Assembly: GCF_001940165.2 (NCBI RefSeq)
Contig: NZ_CP135162.1
Location: 2,013,501 to 2,077,500, forward strand
Length of the DNA: 64,000 nt
DNA from: Roseburia sp. 831b
Lineage (GTDB): Bacteria; Bacillota; Clostridia; Lachnospirales; Lachnospiraceae
Direction of reading: 5' to 3'
Shown: one piece after another, positions 36,193 to 56,401 of the stretch
Numbering within the stretch: position 1 is the stretch's first letter
Layout: each line of letters opens with the position of its first letter
The notes under the pieces: generated by a model
What the model saw: only the letters and a program-made list of their open reading frames with translations
Told to the model about the DNA's origin: nothing
The model's database searches: none
Program-made: the position numbers and the translations under genes

Positions 36193-37407
36193 CTAATTCG
36201 CACCGTAAATATCTCTTGTATATACTTTTTCTTCTACTTGTTCTAATTTTTCATCCATACGATTCGCAATAATGCAATCACACTTATCGCAAAATTCCAC
36301 AAAATCCTGCACAACAGGAACTCCATCGAAATCCGCCTTCTTTAACGTTGGTTCGTAAATTACAACTTCCACACCATGATTTAAGAGATTTTCCATAACC
36401 CCTTGTACAGCCGATTCTCTAAAGTTGTCGGAGTTTGCTTTCATAATCAATCGATATATTCCAATTACTACATCTTTTTTTTCTGGATAACCAGCTTTTT
36501 TCAGAACCTGTTCTGTTACAAATGCCTTTCGTGTCTGATTAGCATTTACAATAGCCTTGATTATATCATTTGGTACATCCTCAAAATTTGCAAGCATCTG
36601 CTTTGTATCCTTTGGTAAACAATAACCACCATATCCAAAAGATGGATTATTATAATGTTTTCCAATTCGAGGATCAAGGCTCATTCCCTCAATAATCTGT
36701 TTTGCATTTAATCCTTTGCTCTCGGCATATGTATCAAGCTCATTAAAGAAAGAAACTCGCATAGCAAGATATGTGTTAGCAAACAACTTCACAGCCTCTG
36801 CCTCCGTTGTATGTGTGTACAATACTTCAACATCTTGTTTAATTGCGCCCTGTTTCAATAAACTTGCAAACAATTCTGCCTTCTCCTGAAGTGCTTTCTC
36901 TCCTTCTGGTACTCCAATTACGATTCTACTTGGATACAAGTTGTCATATAATGCTTTTCCTTCTCTTAAAAACTCCGGCGAGAATATGATATTAGAATAA
37001 TTTAGTCTTTCACACACCATTTTTGTATATCCAACCGGAATTGTAGATTTAATTACAATAGTTGCCTTTGGATTCACCCTTTTTACTATATTGATTACAC
37101 TCTCAACAGATGAAGTGTCAAAATAGTTTCTCTTTACATCATAATTTGTTGGTGTAGCAATGACTACAAATTCTGCTTTTGCATAAGCTGCCTCAGCGTC
37201 TAACGTTGCTGTTAAATCAAGTTTCTTTTCCTTAAGATACTCTTCAATCTCTTTGTCCACGATAGGTGACTTTTTTTCATTTATCATTTGCACTTTATCT
37301 GCAATGACATCAACCGCATACACCTCATTATGCTGTGCCAGCAAAATAGAATTTGATAACCCTACGTATCCAGTCCCTGCAACTGCAATTATATGTTTTT
37401 TGCTCAT
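36193..37407 (-). CDS. ugd: UDP-glucose 6-dehydrogenase
   Basis: A 404-residue enzyme with the NAD motif GTGYVG (11-16), the catalytic Cys263 in [40 protein letters not shown] and [10 protein letters not shown]. These are the marks of the short Ugd class like that of E. coli, rather than the WbpA/WbpO class acting on UDP-GlcNAc/GalNAc. It oxidises UDP-glucose to UDP-glucuronic acid using two NAD+. It sits directly before the three genes for 3-acylamino sugar synthesis, so UDP-GlcA may be both a polymer sugar and the starting point of that branch. Confidence 0.93.
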
Positions 37408-37422
37408 ATCTCTTCTCCTCTT

Positions 37423-38691: not shown

Positions 38692-38737
38692 TCTCTATTC
38701 TCCAAATATTCTTTTTCTTAACATTCTCTGAAATCAG

Positions 38738-39256
38738 CTATTTTAATTCTGATGCTAAATAGCATAATAATTGCTCATAGTTTTCCATCATGAAAATCGG
38801 GTTGCGATTTCTTATCGTAACAGAATCCATATACACTTTTTTCCCTTCATCATCGAATGGAAATTTAGATACTGTATAAGCATACGCTTTTGATATCTCA
38901 TCATTTTCTGTGCAAAACGCCCAATAGCCCATCAAAAATTCAGAGGATTGCTGATACGGTCCGTACCCAATTTGATCTGTGTGATATTCATAACGATAAA
39001 ATCCATTTCTTCCATCCATATAATTGGTCAATCTATAATACGGACATTCATCTGTTGGTTTTTTCAACACCTTATCTATGAATGTTTTCGATATACCATT
39101 TGATAATTTTTCATAACAGGATATTTTTTCCTTTTTTATGTGATTAAAATCTGACAGTAGAACATTAACTTTATACTGTTTTTCTAGCAGTTCCATGATT
39201 GGTTCTAATCGCTTTTCAAACCAATCAAAACAACTAATCAATATTGCTTTTTTCAT
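38738..39256 (-). CDS. Unrecognised 172-residue protein with glycosyltransferase-like N-terminus
   Basis: The start is ATG 39256, 6 nt after AAAGGAG. The first about 45 residues (MKKAILISCFDWFEKRLEPI and on to VNVLLSDFNHIKKE) look like the first strand-helix-strand of a GT-B glycosyltransferase. The remaining 125 residues (GFYRYEYHTDQIGYGPYQQS and on) do not continue that fold in any way I recognise. It could be a cut-down glycosyltransferase joined to another sequence, or a genuine small family. It is in the operon between the ATP-grasp and GT4 genes, with 46 nt after it. No function is proposed. Confidence 0.6.
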   Translation of the reverse strand: MKKAILISCFDWFEKRLEPIMELLEKQYKVNVLLSDFNHIKKEKISCYEKLSNGISKTFIDKVLKKPTDECPYYRLTNYMDGRNGFYRYEYHTDQIGYGPYQQSSEFLMGYWAFCTENDEISKAYAYTVSKFPFDDEGKKVYMDSVTIRNRNPIFMMENYEQLLCYLASELK

Positions 39257-39424
39257 CACAGACTCCTTTCGTTTATAAGGAAAAAAGCATACTATTTCCA
39301 CCAATTCTCAGACTTCCAGTACTTAAGTTTAAACTAGAAATTTTCTTCTATCTCCAAAATCTAAAAGAAACAGTTTTTTCTGATTCTTATAAAAAATCCA
39401 GCTTAATACTTTATCAACTGTCTT

Positions 39425-40399
39425 TTATATACTATCTATTTTTTGAATTACAACGCTATCGTACATCATCATTACTACATTATCATCATAGTTTCCAAAA
39501 CATGGTTGATTTTCTATTCCATTAACATTATTGTTAATCAGCTTTACAAAATCAACTCCAGCACCATATGCATGTAAATATCCCCCTCCAAAACGAGGAT
39601 TGATTTCTGAAAGATAATATTCTCCGTTTCGATACCATAAATCCATATCCATAGGACCGTTAAATTGAAAATGTTTTAGTGCTTCAACAACAAAATCATT
39701 TAACTTTTCATCTTTAAATGATATGGTTTTACTTGCACCACCGATTTTAGTTTCCAATTTTCTTTTACTAAATAACGAAACTACTTTTTTGCTGATAGTA
39801 TCGACATAAATATCCGCATCTATGTCCAATGCATCGCCCATAAATTCCTGAATAATTAAAGTTGGATCTGCATTAAATGCTTTCTCTAGATTATTCATAT
39901 CTGATATCTTACGAGCGCCCACTGAACCGCTTCCTCTTCTTGGTTTAACAAATACCGGAAACTCAATTTTGTTTTCCGTCAACCCTTTTTTAAATGATCC
40001 GATATCCCCATAGGTTAATACAGTTTTTATTTTCTGATTCTGTAAGTATCGAAACATTTCAAATTTATCAAAGCATATTTCTGCTGTTTCTTTATAAGGA
40101 GCCAATACTTCTACGCCTATGGCTTCAAATTCACTTCTATGTTCTGCAAGTAGCATAATTTCTGGATCAATCAATGTAGTAACCATTTGTATTTCTTCTT
40201 TTTTACAAATTTCAAGAATTGTTGGAATATATATATCATCCGTTATTTTGGGAACAATATAAAATTTATCTGCCATATATATAGCTGGTGCAATTACACT
40301 CATATCAGTTGCAATTATTTTTGAATTTTCTGACATACTATTTTTAAAATCTTTCAATAATTCTCCACGTCTACCTACACTACACATTAAAATATTCAT
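39425..40399 (-). CDS. ATP-grasp carboxylate-amine ligase
   Basis: A 324-residue stand-alone ATP-grasp enzyme: N-terminal Rossmann-like part (MNILMCSVGRRGELLKDF), the ATP clamp VFVKPRRGSGSVGAR, IIQEFMGDALDIDADIYVD, and the metal/phosphate site YYLSEINPRFGGGYLHAYGAG. It resembles the carbamoyl-phosphate-synthase-like ATP-grasp group in glycan and natural-product loci. It directly follows a PLP amino acid decarboxylase-like gene (6 nt gap), so it may join the amine made there, or an amino acid, to a sugar carboxylate such as glucuronic acid. The substrate pair is inference. Confidence 0.87.
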   Translation of the reverse strand: MNILMCSVGRRGELLKDFKNSMSENSKIIATDMSVIAPAIYMADKFYIVPKITDDIYIPTILEICKKEEIQMVTTLIDPEIMLLAEHRSEFEAIGVEVLAPYKETAEICFDKFEMFRYLQNQKIKTVLTYGDIGSFKKGLTENKIEFPVFVKPRRGSGSVGARKISDMNNLEKAFNADPTLIIQEFMGDALDIDADIYVDTISKKVVSLFSKRKLETKIGGASKTISFKDEKLNDFVVEALKHFQFNGPMDMDLWYRNGEYYLSEINPRFGGGYLHAYGAGVDFVKLINNNVNGIENQPCFGNYDDNVVMMMYDSVVIQKIDSI

Positions 40400-40405
40400 C
40401 TTAAA

Positions 40406-41578
40406 TCATCTCCTTGTATTACTATGAATGTTATAATAATCATCTACAGTTACTTGTTTTCTCACACATTCAACTTTTTTAGAATCAGATACGTAAACAT
40501 CAGGATAATAACGAATAAACATTCCTCCAAATGTCATCGTATAAGCTCCTACTCTGTGATAAATTATTTTATCACCTATTGATAATTCCTTCTCATTCTC
40601 AATTACCATTAAGCGATCATGATCCATACAAGTATATCCGCATATTATTTGCCTATTATTTATTGTTTCCCTTTGAGTTTCTAATGAGTACATATATCCC
40701 TTTTTAATCCATAATGGATCTATATGTATCCTACTTCCATCTGTAGTAACAATTCTCGCATTTGCCGTATTTTTAACATCTATTACGGATGTAACTAAGT
40801 CTACTACTGAACCAATAATTGCTGATCCCGGTTCAACATATAACTTTGTTTTCCTTACATCAACTATAGGCTCAAATATTTGTTTAATAGCATTAATGTA
40901 TTCAGCCTGAGTTGTTTTTCCTGGTACACCTCCAAAGAATCCTCCTCCCATATCAATGTATGAAATATTTAATTTATATTTTTTTATAACATTCACGGCA
41001 TATTTCGCTAACGATATGTATACATCTTTACTTCTAGTTATACTGTTACAATGTAGATGTAATCCTACTGAATCACTTTTAGTTTGTACTATTTTTATAG
41101 CCCGCTCTAATTCTTCGTTATCATCAGAAAAGCCAAATCTGAAACCATCCTCGACATATTCAATATCTTTTTTATCAAATATCTTTGGATTTGGGTTTAC
41201 TCTAATTCCAATGTTACTTTCCGAAGTTTTATTAATTTCATTAATTAATTTTAAATCATTTTTAGAATCAATATTTACAATAGCACCTTTTTCCAATGCC
41301 TGTATAAATAAATCATTCCCTTTAATAGGTCCGTTATAAATGATTTGATCATCACTAAAACCACATTTTAGAGCCAGACGATATTCTTCGTCAGAAACCA
41401 CTTCAGCATATACATTTTTTGAATGTAAATATTCTATCAACCACGGTAATGAATTAGTTTTAACGGAATAAGCGAGCTGAGAATTTGGCCATATAGCATT
41501 TAAAGCTTGCTCAAAATCATTAATATTTTTATCTAATTTCTCCTTATCTATCCTAAAATAAGGTGTTTTAAGCTCCAT
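40406..41578 (-). CDS. PLP-dependent decarboxylase, alanine-racemase fold (Orn/DAP decarboxylase family)
   Basis: A 390-residue enzyme of the type III PLP fold: PLP Lys40 in LAYSVKTNS, phosphate-binding YIDMGGGFFGG, the EPGSAIIG motif, and the C-terminal beta domain with GYTCMDHD and YHRVGAYTMTFGG, matching ornithine/diaminopimelate decarboxylases. In a polysaccharide operon it likely makes an amine or decarboxylated amino acid for attachment rather than serving lysine or polyamine supply. ATG 41578 lies 8 nt after AGGAGG, whose bases overlap the stop of the priming transferase gene. It is paired with an ATP-grasp ligase gene immediately downstream. Confidence 0.86.
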   Translation of the reverse strand: MELKTPYFRIDKEKLDKNINDFEQALNAIWPNSQLAYSVKTNSLPWLIEYLHSKNVYAEVVSDEEYRLALKCGFSDDQIIYNGPIKGNDLFIQALEKGAIVNIDSKNDLKLINEINKTSESNIGIRVNPNPKIFDKKDIEYVEDGFRFGFSDDNEELERAIKIVQTKSDSVGLHLHCNSITRSKDVYISLAKYAVNVIKKYKLNISYIDMGGGFFGGVPGKTTQAEYINAIKQIFEPIVDVRKTKLYVEPGSAIIGSVVDLVTSVIDVKNTANARIVTTDGSRIHIDPLWIKKGYMYSLETQRETINNRQIICGYTCMDHDRLMVIENEKELSIGDKIIYHRVGAYTMTFGGMFIRYYPDVYVSDSKKVECVRKQVTVDDYYNIHSNTRR

Positions 41579-41591
41579 ATAACGTACCTCC

Positions 41592-42242
41592 TTAGTTTGT
41601 CCCATCAAAATCTTCCATTGTTTCAGAAGTGTCTGAACTAATACCTTCTCTTTTCACCACAGTTCGTATAGTCTGGAATATAATTTTCCAGTCACCCAGA
41701 AAGGAAATATGATCAACATAATATACATCTTTATCAAATTTATCTTCCCAAGTAATTGAATTTCTGCCATGTACTTGTGCATATCCGGTAAACCCAGGTC
41801 TCACCTCATGCCGTCTTGCTTGATGTTCATTGTATAATCCCAAATATTTAACTAATAATGGTCTTGGTCCAACAACAGCCATATCTCCTTTTATAATGTT
41901 TATTAATTCTAATAGTTCATCAAGACTTGTAGAGCGCAACATCTTACCAAATCTTGTTAATCTTTGATCATCTGGTAATAGATTTCCACCTTTATCTTTT
42001 TTATCAGTCATTGTTCTAAATTTATACAAAACAAATATTTTTCCATTAAGTCCTGGTCTTTCCTGTTTAAAAATAACAGGAGAACCCAGCTTAATTCTAA
42101 CTAAAACAGCTGTTATTAAAATCACTGGTGATAATATGATTAATGCCAGCAAAGCACATATAAAATCTTGTGGGCGCTTTATATATTTTTCATAAATACC
42201 TTGCTTATGTTTTCTTTTATCCTGCTTTTTCTTATCATTCAT
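41592..42242 (-). CDS. PglC-like monotopic phosphoglycosyl transferase (priming enzyme)
   Basis: A 216-residue bacterial sugar transferase: short basic N-terminus, one re-entrant hydrophobic helix ([20 protein letters not shown]), the KFRTM motif, the catalytic Asp-Glu pair in [25 protein letters not shown] and [14 protein letters not shown]. It is the compact PglC form without the extra N-terminal helices of WcaJ. It loads a sugar phosphate onto undecaprenyl phosphate and starts the repeat unit. Upstream dehydratase and 4-aminotransferase genes suggest a UDP-4-amino-6-deoxy-HexNAc substrate. Start is ATG 42242, 6 nt after AGGAAG. Confidence 0.92.
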
Positions 42243-42266
42243 ATCCAACTTCCTACCATTAATTGT

Positions 42267-43541
42267 CTATTCAAAACAAGTTCTGATCACTTCAATAATT
42301 CTGTCCTGCTGCTCCGGTGTCATTTTGTTATCACTTGGCAGGCATAATCCTCTGTTAAAAATATCCATACTTATATCCAATGGCAGCCCATCTTTCTCGC
42401 TGACTGCACCACCCGCTATATATGCATTCGTTTTCGCTCTTCCATTACCTTCTCTTGTTACAAATCCATTCATACGATAAATCGGCTGCATATGCATTGG
42501 CTTCCAGATTGGACGCCCCTCAGCATTGATACTGCTAATCGTCTCTAATATCTCTGTCGGACAGCTTTTTCCATGCTCCGGAAGATAAAGTGACTCTTGT
42601 TCGCCTCGGACCTGTCTGCACATTGCATCCCTATCAATCAGCATACAGCTAAGCCAGAAATTCGGCACACTGTTTTCGGCATCAAACGGATTCATTGTTA
42701 CCGGTAATCCTTCAAACCCCTTCTGGTAACGCTCATAGATTGCTTTTTTCTGAGCAATATGCTCTTCAAGGTATGGAAACTGTCCTCTCACAACTCCCGC
42801 AATCACATTACTCATTCTGTAATTATAGCCAACTTCCTCATGCTGATACCACGGTGCGTTCTCTCTTGCCTGTGTCGACCACTTTCTTACTTTCTCTGCA
42901 TCCTCTTTGCTGTCTGTCAAAAACATTCCTCCGGCTGAACCGGTAATTATTTTATTTCCGTTAAATGAAATCGCATTAAAGTTTCCAAATGTTCCCGTCT
43001 GTTGTCCTTTATAGGACGCACCTAACGATTCCGCCGCATCTTCAATAATCTTTGCACCATGCCTGTCTGCAACCGCTTTGATTTGCTCTATCTTTCCCGG
43101 TGTTCCATATAAATGGGCAACTACAACCACTTTTACATCTGGATAAAGTTCAAACCCTTTTTCCAATGCCACAGGATCCATATTCCAGGTATCATATTCT
43201 GTATCAACAAATACAGGCTCTCCGCCTTCATATACAACCGGATTCACCGTTGCGGAAAATGTCATGTCAGAGCAAAATACCTTATCTCCCGGTTTTACTC
43301 CGGCAAGTTTTACAGCCATATGAAGCGCCGCTGTTCCTGCCGACAATGCCACTGCATATTTACAGCCCACCTTTTCACAGGCAAGACGTTCCACCTCGTT
43401 GATATTTTTCCCTACCGTAGACATCCAGTTTGTCTCATAGGCTTCTTTCACGTACTCCAACTCATCTCCATGCATGGTCGGAGACGATAACCATACTTTC
43501 TGTTCCAATGGTTTTACTGTATTTGTTTCTTTTTCTAACAT
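42267..43541 (-). CDS. PglE-like UDP-4-keto-6-deoxy-GlcNAc aminotransferase
   Basis: A 424-residue DegT-family PLP aminotransferase with N-terminal WLSSPTMHGDELEYVKEA, PLP Lys197 in SFNGNKIITGSAGGM, and IIEDAAESLGASYKG, typical of PglE. The Asn-Gly-Asn-Lys form of the lysine motif separates it from the WecE- and WlbC-like enzymes elsewhere in the window. An insertion of about 30 residues near 310-350 (HGKSCPTEILETISSINAEG) makes it longer than usual. It uses the product of the CapD/PglF-like enzyme upstream (3-nt stop to stop-proximal spacing plus leader) and feeds the PglC-like enzyme. ATG 43541 lies 7 nt after GAGGG. Confidence 0.9.
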   Translation of the reverse strand: MLEKETNTVKPLEQKVWLSSPTMHGDELEYVKEAYETNWMSTVGKNINEVERLACEKVGCKYAVALSAGTAALHMAVKLAGVKPGDKVFCSDMTFSATVNPVVYEGGEPVFVDTEYDTWNMDPVALEKGFELYPDVKVVVVAHLYGTPGKIEQIKAVADRHGAKIIEDAAESLGASYKGQQTGTFGNFNAISFNGNKIITGSAGGMFLTDSKEDAEKVRKWSTQARENAPWYQHEEVGYNYRMSNVIAGVVRGQFPYLEEHIAQKKAIYERYQKGFEGLPVTMNPFDAENSVPNFWLSCMLIDRDAMCRQVRGEQESLYLPEHGKSCPTEILETISSINAEGRPIWKPMHMQPIYRMNGFVTREGNGRAKTNAYIAGGAVSEKDGLPLDISMDIFNRGLCLPSDNKMTPEQQDRIIEVIRTCFE

Positions 43542-43564
43542 TTCAGAACCCTCTTTTATCATCT

Positions 43565-45466: not shown

Positions 45467-46702
45467 CTAGCGATGAAATACTCGTGCTATCTTTGCTATC
45501 GCCCTCCACCGTTTTGAATTAACAATTGCGCTATATTGTTCTCTACTTTCCATAAGCATTGTCTCAATATTTTTAATATGTGTATCCTTATCTGATACGC
45601 ATTGCTCTAAAAATACCACACGCTGCTCCAGTGTTTTTTTGTCTTGTAAAATCCGTTCATTTTCTTTCTGCAATAAAACCGGTTCTCTATTCTTTGCACA
45701 ACTGTCTTTCCAGTACTGCGCTAACTTGGCATTTTCATGCAGTAAATCATCTATTTTATAATTTAAATTTTTATTGTCAAGTTCTAACCTGTCCTGCACC
45801 TTATTCTTTTGGTCTATTATTGCATTTAAATTGTCTTTTTCTGACACCAATGCCTGAATTTGTTTATTTAAGCGATCATTTTCTTCACAGCTTCCCTGCC
45901 AGTTTTTCGCTGTCTTCTCCCATTCACTCCGCACATATTGTATTTCATCACGCATATCACTAATCTTTTTTATCTCTTGAAGACATTCAAATTTCTTTTC
46001 TGCAAAGCAAATATCATTTTTCTCTTCTATTACATTTTTATAAAAATTTTGATAAAATTCCCTCATCTTCTCTATCGGAGTGAATACACGGAGAATATGC
46101 ATTGCCTCTTGCAGTGGAACGAATTTTTCAAGGTTTTCAAGATGAAGATATGCATCTCCTATACAATGAAAAACAGCTAAATCCGTCGGTATTCCACAAT
46201 CAAACACCCATTCATAATCAATAAAGCTAATATTATCGCCTACCACAATATTGCTTGGTGTAGCATCAAAATTGGCAATCTTAAGAGATGGTTTTCCATT
46301 AAATTCTCTCATATTTCCAAACCATTTTTTTGTCTCTTCGCTTTCCTCAAAAATCCCCTTATTATCCTCTGCACCACATATCATCTGGTAATGTTTTTCT
46401 AACAGTTCAAAAAATGCTTCCTTATCATCTAAATTCATGCATCTTTCATACTCATCTAACAGTAAATGACCCTCTATATAATCAAATACAATTTTATCCT
46501 TCTCAAATTTCACCGGACAAATTTTAATATCTGGATAAGCCTTTTCTAACATATCCTGATAAGTACATATATTTTTTATATGCTCTATTCCTTCTGGATA
46601 TATAGGGGTTTTTTCAACAAACTTATTGCCATTTTTCTCTACTATCGTTGTTTGAATACTATATTTTTTATTTCTTTCATCACTGAATTTATAATACTGC
46701 AT
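45467..46702 (-). CDS. Kinase-like protein with C-terminal coiled coil (WbdD kinase/ruler-like)
   Basis: A 411-residue protein. Residues about 20-230 have an aminoglycoside/choline-kinase-like fold: the catalytic-loop motif NFDATPSN (Asp146, Asn151) and the metal-binding IDYEWVF (Asp162), with IVFDYIEGHLLLDEY before them. Residues about 240-390 are a long heptad-rich coiled coil (EKDNLNAIIDQKNKVQDRLE and similar). The end KRWRAIAKIARVF is basic and amphipathic and may touch the membrane. Kinase followed by coiled coil is the layout of WbdD, which caps and measures ABC-exported O-polysaccharides; the methyltransferase part is the adjacent gene 3 nt upstream. The role here is inferred. Confidence 0.75.
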   Translation of the reverse strand: MQYYKFSDERNKKYSIQTTIVEKNGNKFVEKTPIYPEGIEHIKNICTYQDMLEKAYPDIKICPVKFEKDKIVFDYIEGHLLLDEYERCMNLDDKEAFFELLEKHYQMICGAEDNKGIFEESEETKKWFGNMREFNGKPSLKIANFDATPSNIVVGDNISFIDYEWVFDCGIPTDLAVFHCIGDAYLHLENLEKFVPLQEAMHILRVFTPIEKMREFYQNFYKNVIEEKNDICFAEKKFECLQEIKKISDMRDEIQYVRSEWEKTAKNWQGSCEENDRLNKQIQALVSEKDNLNAIIDQKNKVQDRLELDNKNLNYKIDDLLHENAKLAQYWKDSCAKNREPVLLQKENERILQDKKTLEQRVVFLEQCVSDKDTHIKNIETMLMESREQYSAIVNSKRWRAIAKIARVFHR

Positions 46703-46705
46703 GAA

Positions 46706-47623
46706 TTATTCTTCCCCCTTAATTGCTTCCACTAAAAATGAGTTTGCAAGCATTTTTACTTCTTCCGCCCCCTCTAAGCTTTGGAACGCCTTTGTTTGGT
46801 CAAATCCGACATATACTGGCAAATCATAGTTACTATGAGATGCGAAATCTATTTTCTGTGTTAATATACTTGTTTCATCATAAATTACAGTTGGTAATTT
46901 ATAATCTGGAAATGGGTAAAAGAATTCTGTACTGGAAAATCCATTTTCTAACAAAAGCTTTTTTAGCTGGCTTCTGCTAAAAGTCTTTACCTTGTCACTC
47001 TTTTTATATCCCTCTATGCCAACATATGGTTTACCAAGATGATCTTCATGAAAACCTGCTATATATTTCATTCCTAATTTGTTTTCAATAGCAACATACA
47101 GTTTTCCATTTGGTTTTAGTGAATTCGATACCTTTCTGATAAAATCCTCATATGGATGCTCACTATTGATATAATGAAATGCATATTCAAGTACACCAAT
47201 CAATGTTATAACATCATATTTCTTTGTAATCTCTATGTCCTGAAAATTTCCAACAAAAATTTCAATATTGTTTAAGTCTTTATGACGGTTTGCGTTGACT
47301 AAAGATCTTCTTTTTGATAATTCGATGCAATCTACTTTTCTACATTTTCTTGCAATTGCACCTGTTACCGCTCCCATTCCGGCACCAATCTCTAGTACTT
47401 CATCATCTTTTGCAATTTCCATAGGTGTAACAATATTCTCTCTTTGTCTACTCAGATGATATAATACTGCCCAATTGTTATAATCTGGATGTGCATAATC
47501 ATATCCATTATCATTTTTTACAATTTCAAGAATACGATTTTCAATCGCATCTCCATCGCTATACAAATCCTCACCCGAATAGTACTGATAATTTAATGTC
47601 ACTCCACCTATTTTCTCATTCAT
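46706..47623 (-). CDS. SAM-dependent methyltransferase (WbdD methyltransferase-like)
   Basis: A 305-residue class I methyltransferase with the SAM motif VLEIGAGMGAVTGAI (residues 76-90), the acidic loop DCIELSKRR, and VITLIGVLEYAFHYI. The C-terminal 100 residues (from TFSRSQLKKLLLENGF) likely bind substrate. Its stop (46706) overlaps the ribosome binding site of the kinase/coiled-coil gene, so the two products are probably made together, in the same order as the domains of WbdD. It may methylate the non-reducing end of a rhamnan-like chain, giving the end mark read by Wzt. Confidence 0.83.
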   Translation of the reverse strand: MNEKIGGVTLNYQYYSGEDLYSDGDAIENRILEIVKNDNGYDYAHPDYNNWAVLYHLSRQRENIVTPMEIAKDDEVLEIGAGMGAVTGAIARKCRKVDCIELSKRRSLVNANRHKDLNNIEIFVGNFQDIEITKKYDVITLIGVLEYAFHYINSEHPYEDFIRKVSNSLKPNGKLYVAIENKLGMKYIAGFHEDHLGKPYVGIEGYKKSDKVKTFSRSQLKKLLLENGFSSTEFFYPFPDYKLPTVIYDETSILTQKIDFASHSNYDLPVYVGFDQTKAFQSLEGAEEVKMLANSFLVEAIKGEE

Positions 47624-47651: not shown

Positions 47652-49409
47652 TTATTTTGCTTCAAATTCATTTTTCTTTATTCTATCAACGACAATTGAA
47701 TGATAACTTGGTCCATATTTTTCAAAAGCGACTTTATTCAATTCTCGCATTCGATAATCGCTATTTGTAATCGAGACCGGCGCATAATCTGTATTATAAG
47801 CTGTCCCTATATAAAACCCTGCATTTTGAATCAAAAATGGAATTGTTAATAATGTTTCCTTTTCATCTTCCATACTCGCCAGACAATTAAAATCTGTTTT
47901 ATTTCCTTTAAGGGTTTCTGTCTTTAACCAAAAGCTTCCTCCTATTGGTGTTCTAGGCTCATCTTCCCTCTTTATGCTTACTCCAATGTCCATTTTTTCC
48001 AAAAAATGTTTTACACTATCGTATTTTCCATACCATCCGTCCTGTGCATTTGCAAACAAAGTTCCAAAATTAGGAATCGGCGGTATTAACATTCCCAAGC
48101 GTTCGTTTTCCCGTAATGTCTGTATAATATTATTTACATATGCCTTTGATGCCATTACATTTTTCCAGTCACTGTACTGCCATGACACTGCATTACTGTA
48201 TGGCTGCTCCTTTTCGCAGTCTTTCATCTCCAAAATTCCAACGTACTCAGCTTTTTCTTTTACGCTTTCTAGGATTTCACACAGCATCTGCGCATATGTA
48301 CCACCCTCCCATATTTTATAGATGAATTTTTCTTTCTGTAAAAAGGGATTTTTCTTAATTTGTTCCAGTTCCTTTGATTCTCCAACTATTACGCAGGATG
48401 TATGATCGTCAATTTCTGATAAATATTTCTCATACTCTATCATATGCTTTGCAGATTGCACATAAATTATGATTGCAACTTTGTGTTCTGCCACATATTC
48501 TTTTTGGCATTCACTCTCTGGGAGCATATAATTAAGCTGCATCGCTCTGCTTATTTCCGTCATATTTTCAAGACGAAGTAAATTGTCCCATATTAAATTC
48601 AAATCATATAAATTATTTTCCTTTAAGTATTCATATACTTCTGCTGTTGTTTCCCCGCATGAGTTCAACATAAAATCCTGATAATTTGTAAAGAATGAGC
48701 GTCTCTTTATTATCGGACATCTTTTAGATATCAGCATGTCCTTGAGACGAAACATTACTGGATTGTATACATATCCTTCATACTCTTTTTCATCACAGTA
48801 CAAATCTCCAACAAATCCCAAATCCTCAAAATGCTTTCTAAATATAGATTCGTAATCACATATCGATTCTATATATGATCTTGGATTTCTCATATTTATT
48901 ATAAAATCCTTGTACTCACTGCTCAAAAAAAGACTTCTTCTTAATACAAGAAAATGTGACTGAATATGTTCTGGCAAATACCCATATCTATTCTGCCCAT
49001 ACGGGTCTGGCTCAACTTTAAAATGCCCTGTTATTCCCCAAAAATCAACATCACGATTGCTCATATCATCAAACATTTCTTCAAATGGGTAAATCGGTCC
49101 GAAAAATGTATAATTTAACATGATAAGTTCATCATAACTTTGTAATTTTTGGAACCCGTAGTAAAATAATCCTTCTCTATATCCCCCAACATCAAACCCC
49201 GCATTATCGCGAACTAATATATCTTGCGTTATCGTCCTAAATTTCCGTTCGCTTTCTTCTGGAATCCTGCCATTGCACACTACAAGAATATTATCTACAT
49301 TTTTCTTTAATTCTTTTAATAAATACACTACATAATCATCAACAATGCCATCTCGATCGTAAAACAAAAAAATCGCACAGCGCTTTATGTCATCTTTAAT
49401 TAATTTCAT
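47652..49409 (-). CDS. RgpF-like rhamnan synthesis protein (copy 1)
   Basis: A 585-residue protein of the RgpF family (rhamnan synthesis F): N-terminal FLFYDRDGIVDDYVVYLLKELK, VRDNAGFDVGGYREGL, LMLNYTFFGPIYPFEEMF-like region, RRSLFLSSEYKDF, and CPIIKRRSFFTNY are family motifs. A second, diverged half starts near 310 (VAIIIYVQSAKHMIEY). RgpF works with RgpA and RgpB in rhamnose-glucose polysaccharide synthesis in streptococci. GGGAG lies 6 nt before the ATG. It is a paralogue of the next gene (17 nt upstream), but its second half is shorter and more diverged. Confidence 0.87.
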   Translation of the reverse strand: MKLIKDDIKRCAIFLFYDRDGIVDDYVVYLLKELKKNVDNILVVCNGRIPEESERKFRTITQDILVRDNAGFDVGGYREGLFYYGFQKLQSYDELIMLNYTFFGPIYPFEEMFDDMSNRDVDFWGITGHFKVEPDPYGQNRYGYLPEHIQSHFLVLRRSLFLSSEYKDFIINMRNPRSYIESICDYESIFRKHFEDLGFVGDLYCDEKEYEGYVYNPVMFRLKDMLISKRCPIIKRRSFFTNYQDFMLNSCGETTAEVYEYLKENNLYDLNLIWDNLLRLENMTEISRAMQLNYMLPESECQKEYVAEHKVAIIIYVQSAKHMIEYEKYLSEIDDHTSCVIVGESKELEQIKKNPFLQKEKFIYKIWEGGTYAQMLCEILESVKEKAEYVGILEMKDCEKEQPYSNAVSWQYSDWKNVMASKAYVNNIIQTLRENERLGMLIPPIPNFGTLFANAQDGWYGKYDSVKHFLEKMDIGVSIKREDEPRTPIGGSFWLKTETLKGNKTDFNCLASMEDEKETLLTIPFLIQNAGFYIGTAYNTDYAPVSITNSDYRMRELNKVAFEKYGPSYHSIVVDRIKKNEFEAK

Positions 49410-49425: not shown

Positions 49426-51213
49426 TTAGGATAAGTTCTTTACTCTCTCTAACAACTCTCTAAAATCGCAATAACCAACTTTTTCAAACATTGCCTTTTC
49501 AAGTTCACGATTTATAAATTCCCAGTTTGTAAGTTCTATCTTTGCAAACCAATCTGACATAAGCCACCCTGGATAATATCCCTCATGTTGTACAACAAAT
49601 GGGTATATTCTCTCTATCGCATGCAAGACAGTTGCATCTGTCTGAATTGGTTCTTCCGGGAATTCTCTATACTGCCAATCATGTGCAAATAATGCTTTCA
49701 AAGCCTTTGTTCTTACCCAAAACATGGAACCTAACGGGGCAATTGGTTCTTTCTCCTCATTCATGTCAACTTGCAACCCAAGTTGTATTGCCAATTCCTT
49801 TGCAACTTTGAAGTTGTCACCCCATTCTCCTTTTCCAGTTGTAGGATAATATGCTCCATGTTTTGGAACTGGAGGCGTTAACATTCCAAGATATTTTTTT
49901 TCTTCAAATAGTGTAATTACATTTTCAACAAATATCTGATTTCTCAATAAGTTCTCGTAACACTCTGTTTGCCAGGAAGCCCCAATTGACATTGGCATAA
50001 TCTGATACACTTTTTTATCATGCACTTTACAAATCAAATCGTATTTGTCAATAATATCTTTACATCCAACCAAAAATGGTGCTACATCACGCCCTATATT
50101 GCCAACAATTCTATACTCTATATTATAATCATCCAAACCTGTAAACTCATTTTTGACAATTTCTGCTTTTTCTTCGTTTGGAACTGTAACATATACATCT
50201 GTTCCCTTAGGCATAGATGTAACATATGAAGCACAGAATTTTGCCAGTTCAGTATAATATATATGAATCACAAGCGCTACCGTAAGCTTCTGTGACCCAC
50301 TCTCTTTCTTTCTGACTTTAGAAGAAAGCACATAATTCCAATGCATTCTCTTCTTAAGGTCTGCCTGATTCTGTAATCTAAGCAAATTTTTATAAATCAA
50401 ACCCGTATCATAATCCAGATTATTTTCTATATATTCCAATGCCTCTTTTGCTGCTTCTCCGCCGCTTCTTGAAAGTGCCTCTGAATATTCATGAAAAAAA
50501 GATCTTCGTTTTATAATTGGGCAACGTTTTCGCTCTATCATATATCTAGGGAAATCTCTAAGTCCCTCATATGTATATCCCTCTAATTCATCTGTATTTG
50601 CATACACATCCCACTTGTATCCCTTATCAGCAAAATCTTTTGTGAATACCGTTTCATGAAAACCTACAGCTTCCTCGTAAGAATGAATTACCGGCAACTC
50701 TTTCCAATAATTTTTAAAATCATCTGTTAAAAATAAAGATTTACGGAATACCATAAAATAAGATTGAATATGCTTTGGAATATACCCATATTTGATTGTT
50801 CCAAATGGATCAAAAGGTACTTCATGAAATTGTGTAATTCCCCAAAAATCCAAATCCTTTCTTGCCATACAATCAAACATTTCCGAAAATGGGTATAGAG
50901 GACCAAAGCTTGTAGAATTTAATACCATTATCTCATCATACTTGCTGAGTTCCTCATACCCATAATACTCTATACCAATTTTATACGCTGTAATATCAAA
51001 TCCCTCATTCGGTCGTACAATTACTTCATCCGCTATTTTTTTGAACTTTTGAAGTCCCTCTTCATTTATTTCTCCATTGCATATAATCAGAAGTCTAGAA
51101 AGATTCTTTTTCAAATCATTCAAAAAAACTTCGTTGTATTCATCTACTATTCCATTCTTATCATAGAATACATATACCGCATACCTTTTTGCAGAATCTG
51201 TCTGTATAACCAT
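49426..51213 (-). CDS. RgpF-like rhamnan synthesis protein (copy 2)
   Basis: A 595-residue RgpF family member: VYVFYDKNGIVDEYNEVFLNDL, VRPNEGFDITAYKIGIEYYG, FWGITQFHEVPFDPFG, IIKRRSFFHEYSEAL. The second half has the typical VALVIHIYYTELAKF, GNIGRDVAPFLVG and KVHDKKVYQIMP motifs, closer to classic RgpF than copy 1. It probably transfers rhamnose or a side-chain sugar in the cytoplasm. AAGGAG lies 5 nt before the ATG. It directly follows the Wzt gene (13 nt), linking it to the ABC export route. Confidence 0.9.
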   Translation of the reverse strand: MVIQTDSAKRYAVYVFYDKNGIVDEYNEVFLNDLKKNLSRLLIICNGEINEEGLQKFKKIADEVIVRPNEGFDITAYKIGIEYYGYEELSKYDEIMVLNSTSFGPLYPFSEMFDCMARKDLDFWGITQFHEVPFDPFGTIKYGYIPKHIQSYFMVFRKSLFLTDDFKNYWKELPVIHSYEEAVGFHETVFTKDFADKGYKWDVYANTDELEGYTYEGLRDFPRYMIERKRCPIIKRRSFFHEYSEALSRSGGEAAKEALEYIENNLDYDTGLIYKNLLRLQNQADLKKRMHWNYVLSSKVRKKESGSQKLTVALVIHIYYTELAKFCASYVTSMPKGTDVYVTVPNEEKAEIVKNEFTGLDDYNIEYRIVGNIGRDVAPFLVGCKDIIDKYDLICKVHDKKVYQIMPMSIGASWQTECYENLLRNQIFVENVITLFEEKKYLGMLTPPVPKHGAYYPTTGKGEWGDNFKVAKELAIQLGLQVDMNEEKEPIAPLGSMFWVRTKALKALFAHDWQYREFPEEPIQTDATVLHAIERIYPFVVQHEGYYPGWLMSDWFAKIELTNWEFINRELEKAMFEKVGYCDFRELLERVKNLS

Positions 51214-51226: not shown

Positions 51227-52492
51227 CTAATGAGTTAATATTTTTATCTCAGAATTCATATCATAAAATCCTACCGTGTTTTTATCTGAAATTACATTTA
51301 TATTACATACATCATATAATCTATGATATACATTAAACCTATTATTGTGAAAACCAACACACCCTAGTGCAAGTAAATAGTTTCTTCCTTGCAAGTTCAT
51401 CACCTGTTTAAACTCTGCTACTCGAATATCACCTTCCTCCACCGTTCCTGTATCAATTCTTTCATACATGGTGTTGGTCCCGGTAACCTCTGTTCCCTGT
51501 AAGTCTTTAATTGTAAACGCAAAAATTGGCTCTTGCATTTTTTTATTAAACTTAACCTTCATCTTTATTGTAAATTCGGTATTTTTTTGTATATTTGAAG
51601 TGATATCACCTTTATCATCAATAATTGCAAAATCAATAATCTCAGCCTGTTTTTCTCCATACTCAATCAATGATGGATTTAACTTTAATTTGCTTTTCCA
51701 AACAACATCATCTCTCTGCTCTATTGTACTACTCTGTACATCAAGTGGCATGTCGTCATGTTTTACAAGTATCTGTTTATATTCATCTACGATTTCTTTC
51801 GGTTTTCCCTCAGATATCTTTTCTCCTTTATTTAATAAAATAACCCTATCACAGTATTTACTGATACTTCCTAGGTCATGGCTGACGAACAATATCGTTT
51901 TCCCCATTTTTTTAAATTCTTCAAACTTATGATAGCATTTTACCTGAAAGAAAACATCTCCGACGGACAATGCCTCGTCCACTATCAGTATATCCGGTTC
52001 AATATTAATGGAAACTGCAAATGCCAATCGTACAAACATACCACTTGAATACGTCTTTACCGGCTGATACACGAAATCTCCGATATCTGCAAATGACAAG
52101 ATATCATCCATTTTTTTATCAATTTCTTCCTTCGAAAATCCCATCATCGTACCATTCAGGTAAATATTTTCAATACCAGTATATTCCATGTTAAAACCGG
52201 CGCCAAGCTCCAACAATGCTGAAATACGCCCCTGTATCTGGACATCTCCATCAGAAGGATTTAAAACACCTGTTATAATTTTAAGCATAGTGGACTTACC
52301 GGAACCATTTGTTCCGATAATTCCCACTGTTTCTCCTCTGTGCACATCAAATGAAACATTCTTCAAAGCATAATGTTCCTTGTACATCTTTTTTCTTGAT
52401 AAACCCAATGACTCTTTCAAACGGTCCATTGGCTTATCGTATAATTTATATAATTTACTAACGTTGTTTACACGTATTGCAACCTCACTCAT
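51227..52492 (-). CDS. wzt: Polysaccharide ABC exporter ATPase with C-terminal glycan-binding domain (Wzt/RgpD-like)
   Basis: A 421-residue protein. The ATPase has Walker A GTNGSGKST (60-68), signature TYSSGMFVRLAFA (about 148-159), Walker B DILIVDEALSVGD and the switch His in LFVSHD. Residues about 255-421 form a beta-sandwich like the Wzt C-terminal domain (ITSNIQKNTEFTIKMKVKFN, FAFTIKDLQGTEVTGTNT), which in E. coli O9a Wzt binds the capped end of the chain. Presence of this domain fits the adjacent WbdD-like capping genes. It pairs with the permease gene 17 nt upstream. Confidence 0.93.
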   Translation of the reverse strand: MSEVAIRVNNVSKLYKLYDKPMDRLKESLGLSRKKMYKEHYALKNVSFDVHRGETVGIIGTNGSGKSTMLKIITGVLNPSDGDVQIQGRISALLELGAGFNMEYTGIENIYLNGTMMGFSKEEIDKKMDDILSFADIGDFVYQPVKTYSSGMFVRLAFAVSINIEPDILIVDEALSVGDVFFQVKCYHKFEEFKKMGKTILFVSHDLGSISKYCDRVILLNKGEKISEGKPKEIVDEYKQILVKHDDMPLDVQSSTIEQRDDVVWKSKLKLNPSLIEYGEKQAEIIDFAIIDDKGDITSNIQKNTEFTIKMKVKFNKKMQEPIFAFTIKDLQGTEVTGTNTMYERIDTGTVEEGDIRVAEFKQVMNLQGRNYLLALGCVGFHNNRFNVYHRLYDVCNINVISDKNTVGFYDMNSEIKILTH

Positions 52493-52508: not shown

Positions 52509-53909
52509 TTATAGCACGTCTGCAAAATGCACCTTTAATCTTCTGAACACAAAACTTCCTGCTCCAAAAAGGAGTGCTGTAACAATCCAAAAATAAATTG
52601 TCAATTGGGCATTCTCCCAAAACCATGCCTTATTAATCAATGCATCTCTATATCCTGCCACAATATAATACATTGGATTCAATTTGAATATCGTAAGCAA
52701 TGTTGGGCTTAAATCCATCGCATCTATGTTCCACATAATTGGGGTCATCCAAATTCCAATCTGTAAAATAATATTTATAATCTGTGTCAAATCCTTGAAG
52801 AAAACGACAATCGAACATGTTATATACACAATTCCTAATACATAAATAATCATGCAAAATGTATAGTATAGTATTTGCAATGTATATAGGTCAGGATAAT
52901 AGTGATAGCATGCATACAAGACCAATGTAAAAGCAATAAAAAACAGATGTACAAATAAAGCTGACATTACTTTTACAATTGGAAGAATACTTATTTTAAA
53001 CACAACCTTTTTTACCAAGTAACTATATTGAACCAGAGCATTCGTTCCACCATTAAGTGCATCCTGAAAGAAAAACCATGGTACAATACCTGCAATCAAC
53101 CACATTACAAACGGAACCTGTATTCCAGCTCTTGTGTTAATTCCTCCCGCCTTTAAACCTTTCTCAAAAACAAACCAATAAACAAGCACAGTAACAATCG
53201 GTTGAACAAATGCCCATATTATTCCTAAATAAGAGCCTGCAAACTGTGTCTTAAAATCGTTTTTCGCAAGATTAAAAATCAGCTTTCTGTTCTGAAACAA
53301 TTCTATTGGCAACATTGCAATTTTTTTAATATTAATCAAAGTATATATCACCATCAAATCAATAATTAAACATGCAAGCACTTTTAATGCTGTTGATTTC
53401 ATAAGTGAACCCTGATATGCTACATCTGCAATGTTCCATGTCGAAGCATTCCATGTAATAAACGGATCCTCAGAATTGGCATTTACCTTTACATATCCAT
53501 CCTGTTCCTGTACTTTGGCTTCATTTACTGACATTAACGAGCACAACTCTTTCGATGTGATTGTACGTTCTACTTTACCACATCTCAACACAATTTTTTC
53601 TACAATGTTGGATGATTTTCCGCTTGCAAAATCAAGTCTTAACATTGTAGTGTCACTCGGAATCTGATATGTTAGCGTAGCATCTTTATCTGGAACTTCA
53701 TATTTGACTATCTGGCTGTTTTGTATAGTAAAACCTTCCTGCGAATTTACCTCTGCATAGAAAAATTGAAACTCCGTTGAAACATCAGATTTCACTGTAA
53801 CATCGACATCTATATTTTTTGCAGGAAATTTCATGCAAATTATTCCAATATTTATCAATACTGCGACAAGTAAAACTAAGACTCTCACCGCAAGTTTTTT
53901 CTTTGACAT
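52509..53909 (-). CDS. wzm: Polysaccharide ABC exporter permease (Wzm/RgpC-like) with extra N-terminal outer domain
   Basis: A 466-residue protein. The C-terminal 265 residues are a normal ABC-2 polysaccharide permease with six helices (NLAKNDFKTQFAGSYLGIIWAF, VPWFFFQDALNGGTNALVQY, YSYLVKKVVFKISILPI). In front are a membrane helix (about 8-26), an outer beta-rich domain (about 30-165, with FQFFYAEVNSQEGF and SDTTMLRLDFASG), and a second helix (about 175-195). Standard Wzm proteins are about 260-270 residues, so the extra 190 are unusual and suggest handling of the emerging chain outside the membrane. AAGGAG lies 7 nt before the ATG. Confidence 0.92.
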   Translation of the reverse strand: MSKKKLAVRVLVLLVAVLINIGIICMKFPAKNIDVDVTVKSDVSTEFQFFYAEVNSQEGFTIQNSQIVKYEVPDKDATLTYQIPSDTTMLRLDFASGKSSNIVEKIVLRCGKVERTITSKELCSLMSVNEAKVQEQDGYVKVNANSEDPFITWNASTWNIADVAYQGSLMKSTALKVLACLIIDLMVIYTLINIKKIAMLPIELFQNRKLIFNLAKNDFKTQFAGSYLGIIWAFVQPIVTVLVYWFVFEKGLKAGGINTRAGIQVPFVMWLIAGIVPWFFFQDALNGGTNALVQYSYLVKKVVFKISILPIVKVMSALFVHLFFIAFTLVLYACYHYYPDLYTLQILYYTFCMIIYVLGIVYITCSIVVFFKDLTQIINIILQIGIWMTPIMWNIDAMDLSPTLLTIFKLNPMYYIVAGYRDALINKAWFWENAQLTIYFWIVTALLFGAGSFVFRRLKVHFADVL

Positions 53910-53950: not shown

Positions 53951-54790
53951 TTAAGCATTCTGCATAATTTTATCAATTTTTGATGGATTTCCCCAAATTC
54001 CTGGAGAATCATACTTTCGTTCTGGATAAACTCCATACTGTAATTTTATATTATATCCATGATTTTTTATAAAGCTTTCAACTTCATCTGCCAATGATAC
54101 AGGTTTTCCGGTACAACAATTAATGATTCCCGTCACTTCTTTTTGTAATGCAACTGAACTGATCTGCTTTGCCAGTTCTTCCACTTCTATAAAATCATAC
54201 AAATTTTTCCCTGTTGTAAATGGGAATGTCGTCTTACCCTCCTCAGCCGCCTGAACAATTTTCGAAAATATGGAATTGCTTCTCAAATCATCACCAATTA
54301 TATAAAATCCTCTGGTCCATTGCAAAATAGTTCCATGCTCTTTTGCAACAAGTTCTACCAATTGACGTAAAGAATTTTTCGCAATTGCATATAATGACAT
54401 TGGATTCGTTGGTGTATTTTCATCAATAGCACCTTCCCAGTATCCAACCTCATGCATACTTCCCATCACTACTAACTGTGGGAGTCCTCCCTCTATCATA
54501 TGTTTTAAAAATGTATAGTGATTCGGCAAGTCTGTTATATGTGTCTCTGCATTATGGATAAAACCGTTTCTCCATGCCAAATGTATACATACATCTGGCT
54601 TACCTAATTGTTCGTATATTGTTTCATCACCACTAAATATTTCCACAGGAACTTGATGTACCCTGTTGTCAATTCCATCAAATCGCAAATCGCAGGCATA
54701 CACCTCGCAGTTTCTATTAAGGAGTTCATTCACAACATGTCTGCCAATATAGCCATTTGCTCCTGTCACAAGAACTCTTTTTTTCACCAT
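53951..54790 (-). CDS. NAD-dependent dTDP-4-keto-6-deoxysugar reductase (Tll-like, 6-deoxy-talose/rhamnose type)
   Basis: A 279-residue extended SDR enzyme with TGANGYIGRHVV, VVMGSMHEVGYWEGAIDENT and the catalytic YAIAKNS (YxxxK). Motifs HLAWRNGFIHNAETH and GNPSKIDKIM recall Tll, the dTDP-6-deoxy-L-talose 4-dehydrogenase, more than RmlD. It stands where rmlD would be in a dTDP-rhamnose operon (after rfbA and rfbC). The product could be dTDP-L-rhamnose or dTDP-6-deoxy-L-talose; sequence alone does not settle this. ATG 54790 is 6-8 nt after AGGGGTG; the in-frame GTG at 54799 overlaps that site. Confidence 0.78.
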   Translation of the reverse strand: MVKKRVLVTGANGYIGRHVVNELLNRNCEVYACDLRFDGIDNRVHQVPVEIFSGDETIYEQLGKPDVCIHLAWRNGFIHNAETHITDLPNHYTFLKHMIEGGLPQLVVMGSMHEVGYWEGAIDENTPTNPMSLYAIAKNSLRQLVELVAKEHGTILQWTRGFYIIGDDLRSNSIFSKIVQAAEEGKTTFPFTTGKNLYDFIEVEELAKQISSVALQKEVTGIINCCTGKPVSLADEVESFIKNHGYNIKLQYGVYPERKYDSPGIWGNPSKIDKIMQNA

Positions 54791-54801
54791 TATGTTCACC
54801 C

Positions 54802-55380
54802 CTATTTTTCTTTTCTGGCAATGTACTCTTTTATTCCACCATGTACTTTATCTTTTTCGGATAAGATTAAATCCTTTTCTGTCATTCCTTCTGGCATTGG
54901 CCATTCCACTCCAATTTCAGGATCATTCCACATAAGTCCGCCCTCATCATTTGGGTGATAGAAGTCTGTTACTTTATAGCAGAATTCTGCATAATCACTT
55001 AGTACAATAAATCCATGTGCAAAATCTTTTGGAATAAAGAACTGCTTCTTATTTTCAGCAGTCAGTTCCACACCAAACCATTTTCCAAATGTTTCAGAGC
55101 CTTCTCTTAAGTCCACAGCCACGTCAAATACTCTACCATTTACAACTCGAACAAGCTTATCCTGTGGATAGTTAATCTGAAAATGAAGTCCTCTTAAGAC
55201 ACCTTTCTTAGATGCAGACTGATTGTCCTGTACAAACTCACAATCAATTCCTGCTTCTTTAAAATCATTGTAGTTATATGTTTCCATGAAGTATCCTCTC
55301 TCATCACCGAATACTGCAGGTTCAATTACTTTTAATCCTTTAATTCCATTACAATCGTTTGTTACTTTAATTTTTCCCAT
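54802..55380 (-). CDS. rfbC: dTDP-4-dehydrorhamnose 3,5-epimerase
   Basis: A 192-residue cupin enzyme: PAVFGDERGYFMETYNYNDF, VQDNQSASKKGVLRGLHFQ, the catalytic-type His in GLHFQI and FIPKDFAHGFIVLSDYAEFCYK. Length and motifs are those of RmlC. It converts dTDP-4-keto-6-deoxyglucose to the L-lyxo form, second last step to dTDP-L-rhamnose. The C-terminal VEWPMPEGMTEKDLILSEKD is typical of Firmicute members. AGAGG lies 8 nt before the ATG. A 108-nt gap with a hairpin separates it from rfbA. Confidence 0.96.
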   Translation of the reverse strand: MGKIKVTNDCNGIKGLKVIEPAVFGDERGYFMETYNYNDFKEAGIDCEFVQDNQSASKKGVLRGLHFQINYPQDKLVRVVNGRVFDVAVDLREGSETFGKWFGVELTAENKKQFFIPKDFAHGFIVLSDYAEFCYKVTDFYHPNDEGGLMWNDPEIGVEWPMPEGMTEKDLILSEKDKVHGGIKEYIARKEK

Positions 55381-55488: not shown

Positions 55489-56367
55489 TTATAATCCTTC
55501 TGCGATTTCCATTAAATACTTACCATAATCTGTTTTCAATAACGGCTGTGCTAATTTTACAAGCTGTTCCTTATCAATAAATCCTCTCTTATAAGCAATC
55601 TCCTCGATACAGGAAACATACAATCCCTGACGTTTTTGAATTGCAGATACAAAATCTGCTGCTGCAAGAAGCATGTCATGATTTCCAGTATCAAGCCATG
55701 CGAATCCACGTCCTAATGTCTCTACGCTTAATGTTCCTTTATCTAAATATGCATTATTAACACTTGTAATTTCAATCTCACCACGAGCAGATGGTTTTAC
55801 ATTCTTAGCAATCTCTACTACACTGTTATCATAGAAGTAAAGACCTGGTACTGCGTAATTTGATTTTGGTTCTGCTGGTTTTTCTTCAATAGACAATGCT
55901 TTACCATTCTCATCAAATTCTACAACACCATACTCTCTTGGGTCTCTTACATAATATCCAAAGATGGTTGCACCACCTTCATTTTCGACACGCTCTGCAG
56001 CACTTCTCAACACTTTTGAGAAACTCTGTCCATAGAAAATATTATCTCCTAGTACTAATGCCACAGCATCATTTCCAATGAACTCTTCACCAATAATAAA
56101 AGCATCAGCAAGTCCTCTTGGGCTCTCCTGTACTGCATATTCAATGTGCATACCAAGCTGACTTCCATCTTCTAATAATTCCTTAAATACAGGAAGATCT
56201 CTTGGTGTTGAAATAATAAGAACCTCTCTGATTCCTGCCAGCATTAAAGTTGACAATGGATAGTAAATCATTGGCTTGTCATAAACCGGCATAATCTGCT
56301 TTGAAATCGCTTTTGTTAATGGGTAAAGTCTGGTGCCAGATCCTCCAGCAAGAATAATTCCCTTCAT
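55489..56367 (-). CDS. rfbA: Glucose-1-phosphate thymidylyltransferase
   Basis: A 292-residue nucleotidyltransferase: [72 protein letters not shown], and [16 protein letters not shown], all RmlA motifs, with full family length. It joins glucose-1-phosphate and dTTP to dTDP-glucose, the entry to dTDP-rhamnose and dTDP-amino sugars. ATG 56367 lies 8 nt after GGAGG; a TTG 15 nt further upstream is part of that site. It is the first gene of the long minus-strand series and has its own promoter. Confidence 0.97.
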
Positions 56368-56401
56368 ATATAATACCTCCAAATTTGTTTTTTTCCTTAT
56401 T

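Follow-up and report, generated by a model that had tools for sequence, protein, structure and literature searches.

A pair of adjacent genes in the window analysed here, a stretch of 64,000 nucleotides from Roseburia sp. 831b (Lachnospiraceae; contig NZ_CP135162.1, positions 2,013,501 to 2,077,500), probably encodes a Klebsiella O7-type chain terminator divided between two proteins, a methyltransferase (MT) and a kinase with a coiled coil (KIN). The pair would cap a glycan with methyl-phosphate, measure it with a ruler, and have the capped end recognised by Wzt_C, the C-terminal domain of the exporter ATPase Wzt. We observed or computed the genes, the predicted folds, the conserved active sites, the homology to the terminator family, the linkage to one Wzt_C subtype and the heptad-stepped lengths of the coil; from these we infer the reactions, the acceptor sugar, the function of the ruler and the recognition step.

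The pair is situated on the minus strand downstream of Wzm, Wzt and two RgpF genes, the complete order being RmlA, RmlC, an epimerase/dehydratase, Wzm, Wzt, two RgpF-like genes, MT and KIN. The initial annotation, made from the sequence alone, had described a methyltransferase, a kinase and a coiled coil in the order of Escherichia coli WbdD, and a Wzt with a C-terminal glycan-binding domain and two RgpF-like proteins in the same operon; gene annotation with the AlphaFold model bears out the former, and matches to Wzt_C and PF05045 the latter. Only 3 nt separate the stop side of MT from the start side of KIN. The AlphaFold model of KIN features an aminoglycoside-phosphotransferase-like kinase, a helix of 148 residues and a short basic tail. 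The fold was taken from this model because single-sequence searches of Pfam, NCBIfam and PDB gave no kinase for KIN. The catalytic residues are invariant in the alignment of KIN proteins, and all kinase residues are present in the window KIN. An NS-x-x-W-like motif in the tail is found in 23 of 27 rows of the coil clade. A scan of viral contigs with a part of KIN yielded one pattern match and no relative.

The reference protein of the family is ORF6-O7 of Klebsiella pneumoniae, described in the O4/O7 paper of 2024 (PMC11231755). It consists of a methyltransferase with CgnL as the nearest fold, an unannotated domain with AmiN as the nearest fold, a carbohydrate-binding module (CBM), a coiled coil and two GT2 modules. 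In vitro work and nuclear magnetic resonance showed that it transfers phosphate to O-3 of the terminal rhamnose, which is alpha-1,3-linked, and methylates this phosphate, the latter incompletely in vitro; the D441A substitution abolishes the kinase activity (PMC11231755). Orthologues were named there in alpha- and gammaproteobacteria, cyanobacteria and Methanoculleus; no Gram-positive is among these, and the main text does not contain the term Gram-positive.

We compared profiles of this family using hhalign. The profile of fused MT-KIN proteins (A4) matches that of Gram-negative O7-type proteins (A8) with Prob 100 and E 2e-64 over 493 columns spanning the methyltransferase and the kinase. For the kinase alone, the profile including the window KIN (A6) matches A8 with Prob 97.4 and E 1e-11, and a profile of kinase, domain, coil and tail (A9) does so with Prob 98.8 over 412 columns, being aligned through the stretch between the kinase and the coil. 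Thus homologous MT and kinase domains occur in the order of the O7 terminator, and in KIN, as in ORF6-O7, the kinase is followed by a coiled coil. A tblastn search of plasmids with a fused relative retrieved two records, both Gram-negative, from Citrobacter braakii and Pseudomonas asturiensis, where the hit comes directly after the genes for an ABC permease and a Wzt_C-bearing ABC ATPase. The P. asturiensis protein (1457 aa, the first member of A8) served as a stand-in for ORF6-O7: it has Tyr28, Tyr66, Gly91, Gly93, Glu112 and Tyr158, that is, six of the six residue numbers published for the S-adenosylmethionine (SAM) site of ORF6-O7, and its Asp443 is two residues from the catalytic Asp441. 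The window MT is 37% identical to this O7-type methyltransferase over 294 aa (E 9e-57), and its Y21, Y55, G80, G82, E101 and Y147 correspond to Y28, Y66, G91, G93, E112 and Y158, while KIN D146 shares the alignment column of Asp443. On these comparisons, MT-KIN belongs to the family of the K. pneumoniae O7 terminator, and MT is predicted to methylate a terminal sugar phosphate. The N-terminal part of ORF6-O7 resembles the pair in having a methyltransferase, a kinase unlike that of WbdD (the closest fold being amicoumacin kinase) and a coiled coil, and in acting in an ABC-exporter pathway on a rhamnose-containing chain, which is probable for the window. It differs in that a single polypeptide carries a CBM and, at its C-terminal end, two GT2 modules, and acts on a Gram-negative O antigen, whereas the window pair comprises two genes, has neither a CBM in KIN nor a fused glycosyltransferase, and is Gram-positive with RgpF-like partners.

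The genomic context was surveyed in 150 genomes of the Lachnospiraceae, one per genus. Wzt_C yielded 113 matches in 94 genomes, and KIN, which has no Pfam family, 86 loci (fragments merged) in 82 genomes. We used KIN for the linkage counts, since the MT profile alone is unspecific: it has matches in 149 of the 150 genomes, many of them short and confined to the general SAM core. In 73 of the 86 loci KIN lies at most 6 kb downstream of a same-strand Wzt_C, mostly at about 1 kb, the length of MT; hence this is not a pair common in loci lacking an ABC exporter. When the Wzt_C score is at least 120 bits, KIN is found within 6 kb downstream in 72 of 77 cases, as opposed to none of 36 for weaker domains (Fisher 2e-24), and the genomes of the five strong exceptions all have KIN elsewhere or on the other side. 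In the named loci, Wzt is at most 500 nt upstream of MT-KIN in 71 out of 80. The possibility that MT stands beside any Wzt_C by chance was rejected, as in the 20 weak loci examined (of 36) neither the MT nor the KIN profile had a match. Few genomes outside the family have KIN: it was matched in 18 of 291 at the class level and in 9 of 249 at the phylum level, both sets including genomes of the family itself. A survey within the genus of the window gave KIN matches in 29 out of 62 genomes. KIN or MT-KIN frames with no nearby Wzt_C were seen in G137, G071, G151, L054 and L057, G151 maybe being at a contig edge.

Wzt_C provides evidence independent of the kinase. As in CBM-dependent Wzm-Wzt exporters, the window Wzt carries this domain at its C-terminus, and caps are read by domains of this kind (PMC9445017). 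A profile built on 72 Wzt_C domains encoded beside MT-KIN, the window domain not being among them, gives the latter 256 bits, two O7-type Gram-negatives 78 and 71, E. coli HS (O9 type) 56, and 19 unlinked members of the family 16–53. In the tree of 41 Wzt_C domains, those linked to MT-KIN form one clade (100/97); together with the two O7-type domains and that of E. coli HS they are on one side of a branch supported by 95/80, all 19 unlinked ones being apart. This grouping is suggestive, with long branches, that of E. coli among them.

Among the matches listed, MT is found just upstream in at least 82 of the 86 KIN loci. The two form one open frame in 48 of these 82 (in one case, G145, with a stop inside the MT match) and separate frames in 34, where the KIN frame is at most 600 aa in 17 cases and longer than 900 aa in 16; the 80 named loci divide into 64 with a fusion and 16 with a split. 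Scans of three long KIN frames separate from MT showed two GT2 modules each in L067 and L099 and an RgpF domain in L069. Since fused, split and glycosyltransferase-bearing arrangements are all seen, the split pair stands at one end of a modular series comprising a single frame, MT with KIN, and MT with a KIN that carries a glycosyltransferase. A frameshift as the cause of the split was considered and rejected. The proposal that a cap-and-measure system operates in a Gram-positive as two proteins is supported for the window, such a terminator being most probable, but two proteins are one of several arrangements. The L069 protein (L069:8925-13181, 1419 aa) combines KIN, the RgpF domain and more, so that a Gram-positive would have its terminator and polymerase fused much as in O7.

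The KIN coil has a heptad period (0 of 500 shuffles). Its length was taken as the distance between the end of the kinase and the tail motif and was measured in 23 of the 31 KIN proteins aligned, which are related sequences; the shortest coil has 74 residues and the longest 174. Among them 15 different lengths occur, which cluster modulo 7 (classes 3,0,0,6,1,0,5; chi-square p 0.006, simulation 0.002), and no clustering of these lengths is observed modulo 5, 6 or 8–11. Tandem arrays with a period multiple of 21 bp are present in 9 of 110 KIN frames, compared to 2 among 293 frames of these loci that served as controls (Fisher 2e-4). Eight of the nine are beyond the kinase domain and one is inside it; six cover long charged repeats of the coiled-coil type. 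In L093 the unit is 21 residues (three heptads) in 5.6 copies, and L135 has eight copies of 21 bp; no such array is present in the window KIN. Heptad steps and repeats would fit a rod that keeps register and whose length matters, its function being suggested by WbdD (PMC5082667) and the O7 paper. Near-identical tandem repeats of 21 or 63 bp encode the coil in L135:10096-10264, L102:10183-10267, L093 and L106; possibly, they act as a slippage-driven switch of ruler length.

A mechanism may be proposed as follows. The glycan, probably rhamnose-containing, would be polymerised in the cytoplasm on a lipid carrier by the operon glycosyltransferases, the RgpF-like proteins being candidates. KIN would phosphorylate the non-reducing terminal sugar, most likely at O-3 of rhamnose, and MT would methylate this phosphate, stopping chain growth. 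The basic tail may anchor the coil at the membrane or the polymerase and keep the kinase at a fixed distance, so that only chains reaching it would be capped, and the Wzt_C subtype would then recognise the methyl-phosphate end and license export via Wzm-Wzt.

The same domain order raises the question whether MT-KIN is a genuine WbdD divided over two proteins. E. coli O9a has a methyl-phosphate cap. Its WbdD resembles the pair in the domain order, the place in a wzm-wzt operon and the coiled coil followed by an S-x-S-W-R tail, the likeness in function being one of analogy (PMC3482155), and the WbdD coil is a ruler in this strain (PMC5082667). In relatives, MT-KIN follows wzt at the position that WbdD occupies in E. 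coli HS, with two RgpF genes lying between Wzt and MT in the window, and the KIN tail weakly aligns with the WbdD tail S-R-S-W-R-M-T (hhalign Prob 47). We used the WbdD of E. coli HS, which matches PDB entries 4azs, 4azt, 4azv, 4azw and 4uw0, and a profile of 29 WbdD-family sequences (A5). The KIN kinase profile A6 has no recognisable sequence homology to WbdD (Prob 6.7; -1.1 bits), the similarity of A4 to it is confined to the general SAM-binding core (Prob 65, E 6e-5), and blastp with the window MT gives nothing significant. Two histidines, H132 and H133, are needed by WbdD for methylation (PMC3482155). They align with Glu and Tyr in the first row of A4, and R203, also of the WbdD phosphate site, is outside the aligned stretch. 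WbdD is absent among the 50 matches listed per fold search, which decides nothing; by fold both are kinases. Moreover, unlike the pair, WbdD is a single protein with a protein-kinase-like kinase and a two-histidine methyltransferase site. By sequence, MT-KIN is not WbdD by descent, contrary to what the initial annotation had implied; its true relatives are the O7-type proteins identified by A4 and A8 and by the similarity of the window MT to the Pseudomonas enzyme. A split WbdD is already contradicted at this level and is very improbable.

A more serious competitor accepts methyl-phosphate capping and denies the measuring: the coil would oligomerise KIN or dock it to the polymerase or exporter, and the length would be set elsewhere. 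We consider this unlikely, though well within consideration. Capping by Geobacillus stearothermophilus WsaE is independent of chain length in vitro (PMC2943079), which also tells against the ruler proposed here, and some fused relatives (L084 and L116, by eye) have little or no coil after the kinase; however, changes by whole heptads and whole-heptad tandem repeats fit selection on a rod of defined length, and a coil does measure in WbdD (PMC5082667). It is also conceivable that the targets of MT and KIN are residues inside the chain or a precursor (a decoration or a sugar nucleotide) rather than the chain end. Methyltransferases and aminoglycoside-phosphotransferase-like kinases use many small molecules, and the acceptor is here only predicted. 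However, both domains are homologous to a proven end-capping enzyme and are tightly linked to one subtype of a cap-reading kind of domain (PMC9445017), making such a role improbable.

Several observations weigh against the O7-type terminator itself. In the model of the window KIN the kinase (ending at residue 242) passes directly to the helix (residue 247) with no CBM between them; the window KIN and its coil clade thus lack the domain between kinase and coil that is present in ORF6-O7 and in most relatives (such a stretch is seen in most of 15 read by eye). The link to ORF6-O7 goes through published residue numbers matched in the Pseudomonas protein. For the KIN subfamily to which the window protein belongs (A3), the match to the O7-type profile is weaker (Prob 89), and single proteins score low in the kinase HMM comparison, the best domain having 18 bits in Pseudomonas and less than 4 in Citrobacter. 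Where the KIN family has an invariant Lys, the Pseudomonas kinase has His; in the Citrobacter kinase, Glu replaces the Asp of the DYEW motif. Of the KIN loci, 13 out of 86 are not within 6 kb downstream of Wzt_C, and the cut-off of 120 bits was chosen after seeing the table, where a natural gap extends from 134 to 121 bits. In the coil analysis 8 of 31 rows were dropped (four without the motif as written and four outside the coil clade), the sequences being related. Finally, the O7 paper terms the termination strategy widespread across the bacterial kingdom (PMC11231755), and the novelty is lower for that reason.

Neither is the Gram-positive setting new by itself, since WsaE, with predicted Wzm/Wzt export, has been described: it 2-O-methylates the terminal rhamnose of the G. 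stearothermophilus S-layer rhamnan (PMC2943079). WsaE is similar to the MT-KIN system in the Gram-positive host, the rhamnan, the capped chain end and the predicted exporter, but it makes a methyl ether with no phosphate, has no kinase, its methyltransferase is fused to two glycosyltransferases, and no measuring is shown in that paper (PMC2943079). End-capping with Wzm/Wzt export had thus been proposed for a Gram-positive before, although the initial annotation spoke of a system known in Gram-negatives. As far as the open-access literature shows, the novelty lies in a methyl-phosphate family in Gram-positives, with its spread through one gut family, the two-protein split, the pairing with a Wzt_C subtype and the heptad-stepped coil; in the titles and abstracts of that literature no length control is described for a wall or surface glycan of this gut family. 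In ten weak Wzt_C loci, one downstream gene each (the next or next but one) was considered: five encode other methyltransferases, three plain glycosyltransferases, one a Mur ligase and one YfhO. Such methyltransferases are found in L164:3152-6631, L162, L165, L159 and L160, and one weak-locus methyltransferase is fused to two GT2 domains like WsaE. Possibly, they produce methyl-ether caps.

If the O7-type reading is correct, methyl-phosphate capping with a coiled-coil ruler would be no speciality of the Gram-negative O antigen and would control a glycan of the wall or surface in a family that ranks among the commonest in the gut. Gram-positive chain-length control would become testable, with ruler length varying by heptads as a natural experiment, and a gene lacking a Pfam family in 82 of 150 sampled genera would acquire a likely function. 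A bolder version can be put forward only tentatively, the balance being somewhat against it: in most Lachnospiraceae genera with this exporter, a ruler coil changed by whole heptads, in some lineages through 21- or 63-bp DNA repeats, would set the length of a rhamnose-containing wall glycan, strains could shift the polymer length by slippage, and the cap would be methyl-phosphate, read by one Wzt_C lineage in bacteria ranging from Gram-positives to O9-type E. coli, regardless of which kinase had made it.

Annotation would also be corrected, for example that of Pseudomonas O7-type proteins labelled glycosyltransferases or WbdD. An operon of the Pseudomonas syringae group was described as wzm, wzt and 'likely wbdD' (PMC12608077). 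The proteins of this group have about 1400–1650 aa with MT and GT2 domains, and at least one is a row of A8, matching the MT-KIN profile; the gene is annotated as glycosyltransferase or WbdD, and is of the O7 type by the A4 and A8 profiles. The published operon likely holds this O7-type gene. O7-type terminator proteins of this size (e.g. L145:11920-16293) are common in Pseudomonas, including the P. syringae group, and are annotated as glycosyltransferases. In a protein search for ORF6-O7, with 120 of 1249 entries listed, all listed entries that name an organism are from Pseudomonas.

Table 1. Features of the MT-KIN operon (positions in the window)
Feature	Position	Strand	Evidence
RmlA	55489..56382	-	TIGR01207 above cut-off
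RmlC	54802..55380	-	TIGR01221 above cut-off
NAD-dependent epimerase/dehydratase, possibly the RmlD step	53951..54799	-	PF01370 9e-24; weak RmlD match
Wzm, ABC exporter membrane subunit with a 200-residue N-terminal extension	52509..53909	-	ABC2_membrane, residues 211-424
Wzt, ABC exporter ATPase with C-terminal glycan-binding domain	51227..52492	-	ABC_tran and Wzt_C
Wzt_C domain, subtype accompanying MT-KIN	51257..51664	-	PF14524 9e-41, 142.5 bits; 256 bits to linked-Wzt_C profile; tree
RgpF-like glycosyltransferase 2	49426..51213	-	PF05045 9e-206
RgpF-like glycosyltransferase 1	47652..49409	-	PF05045 3e-119
MT, class I SAM methyltransferase, 305 aa	46706..47623	-	Pfam Methyltransf_12 1e-10
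Purine-rich stretch of ribosome-binding type within the MT end, before the KIN start codon	46711..46720	-	sequence; putative role
KIN, kinase, coiled coil and tail, 411 aa	45467..46702	-	AlphaFold model, fold search, conservation
KIN kinase domain, residues 1-242, aminoglycoside-phosphotransferase-like	45977..46702	-	
KIN coiled coil, residues 247-394, proposed ruler	45521..45964	-	single predicted helix; heptad period
KIN tail NSKRW...R, residues 395-411, proposed membrane or polymerase anchor	45470..45520	-	conserved motif; weak WbdD-tail alignment

The window Wzm is 466 aa long, and about 200 N-terminal residues have no Pfam match. Wzm proteins of 453–471 aa are present also in L066, L068, L069, L087 and L135, and those in many other loci have about 270 aa.

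A second glycan locus, with another export type, adjoins the operon at positions 29173-43562 of the window. It contains genes for a MurJ-like flippase, a Wzy_C-like protein, glycosyltransferases, UDP-glucose dehydrogenase, two DegT aminotransferases and a Bac_transf sugar transferase, as well as a PylC-like ATP-grasp protein encoded beside an ornithine/arginine-decarboxylase-like protein.

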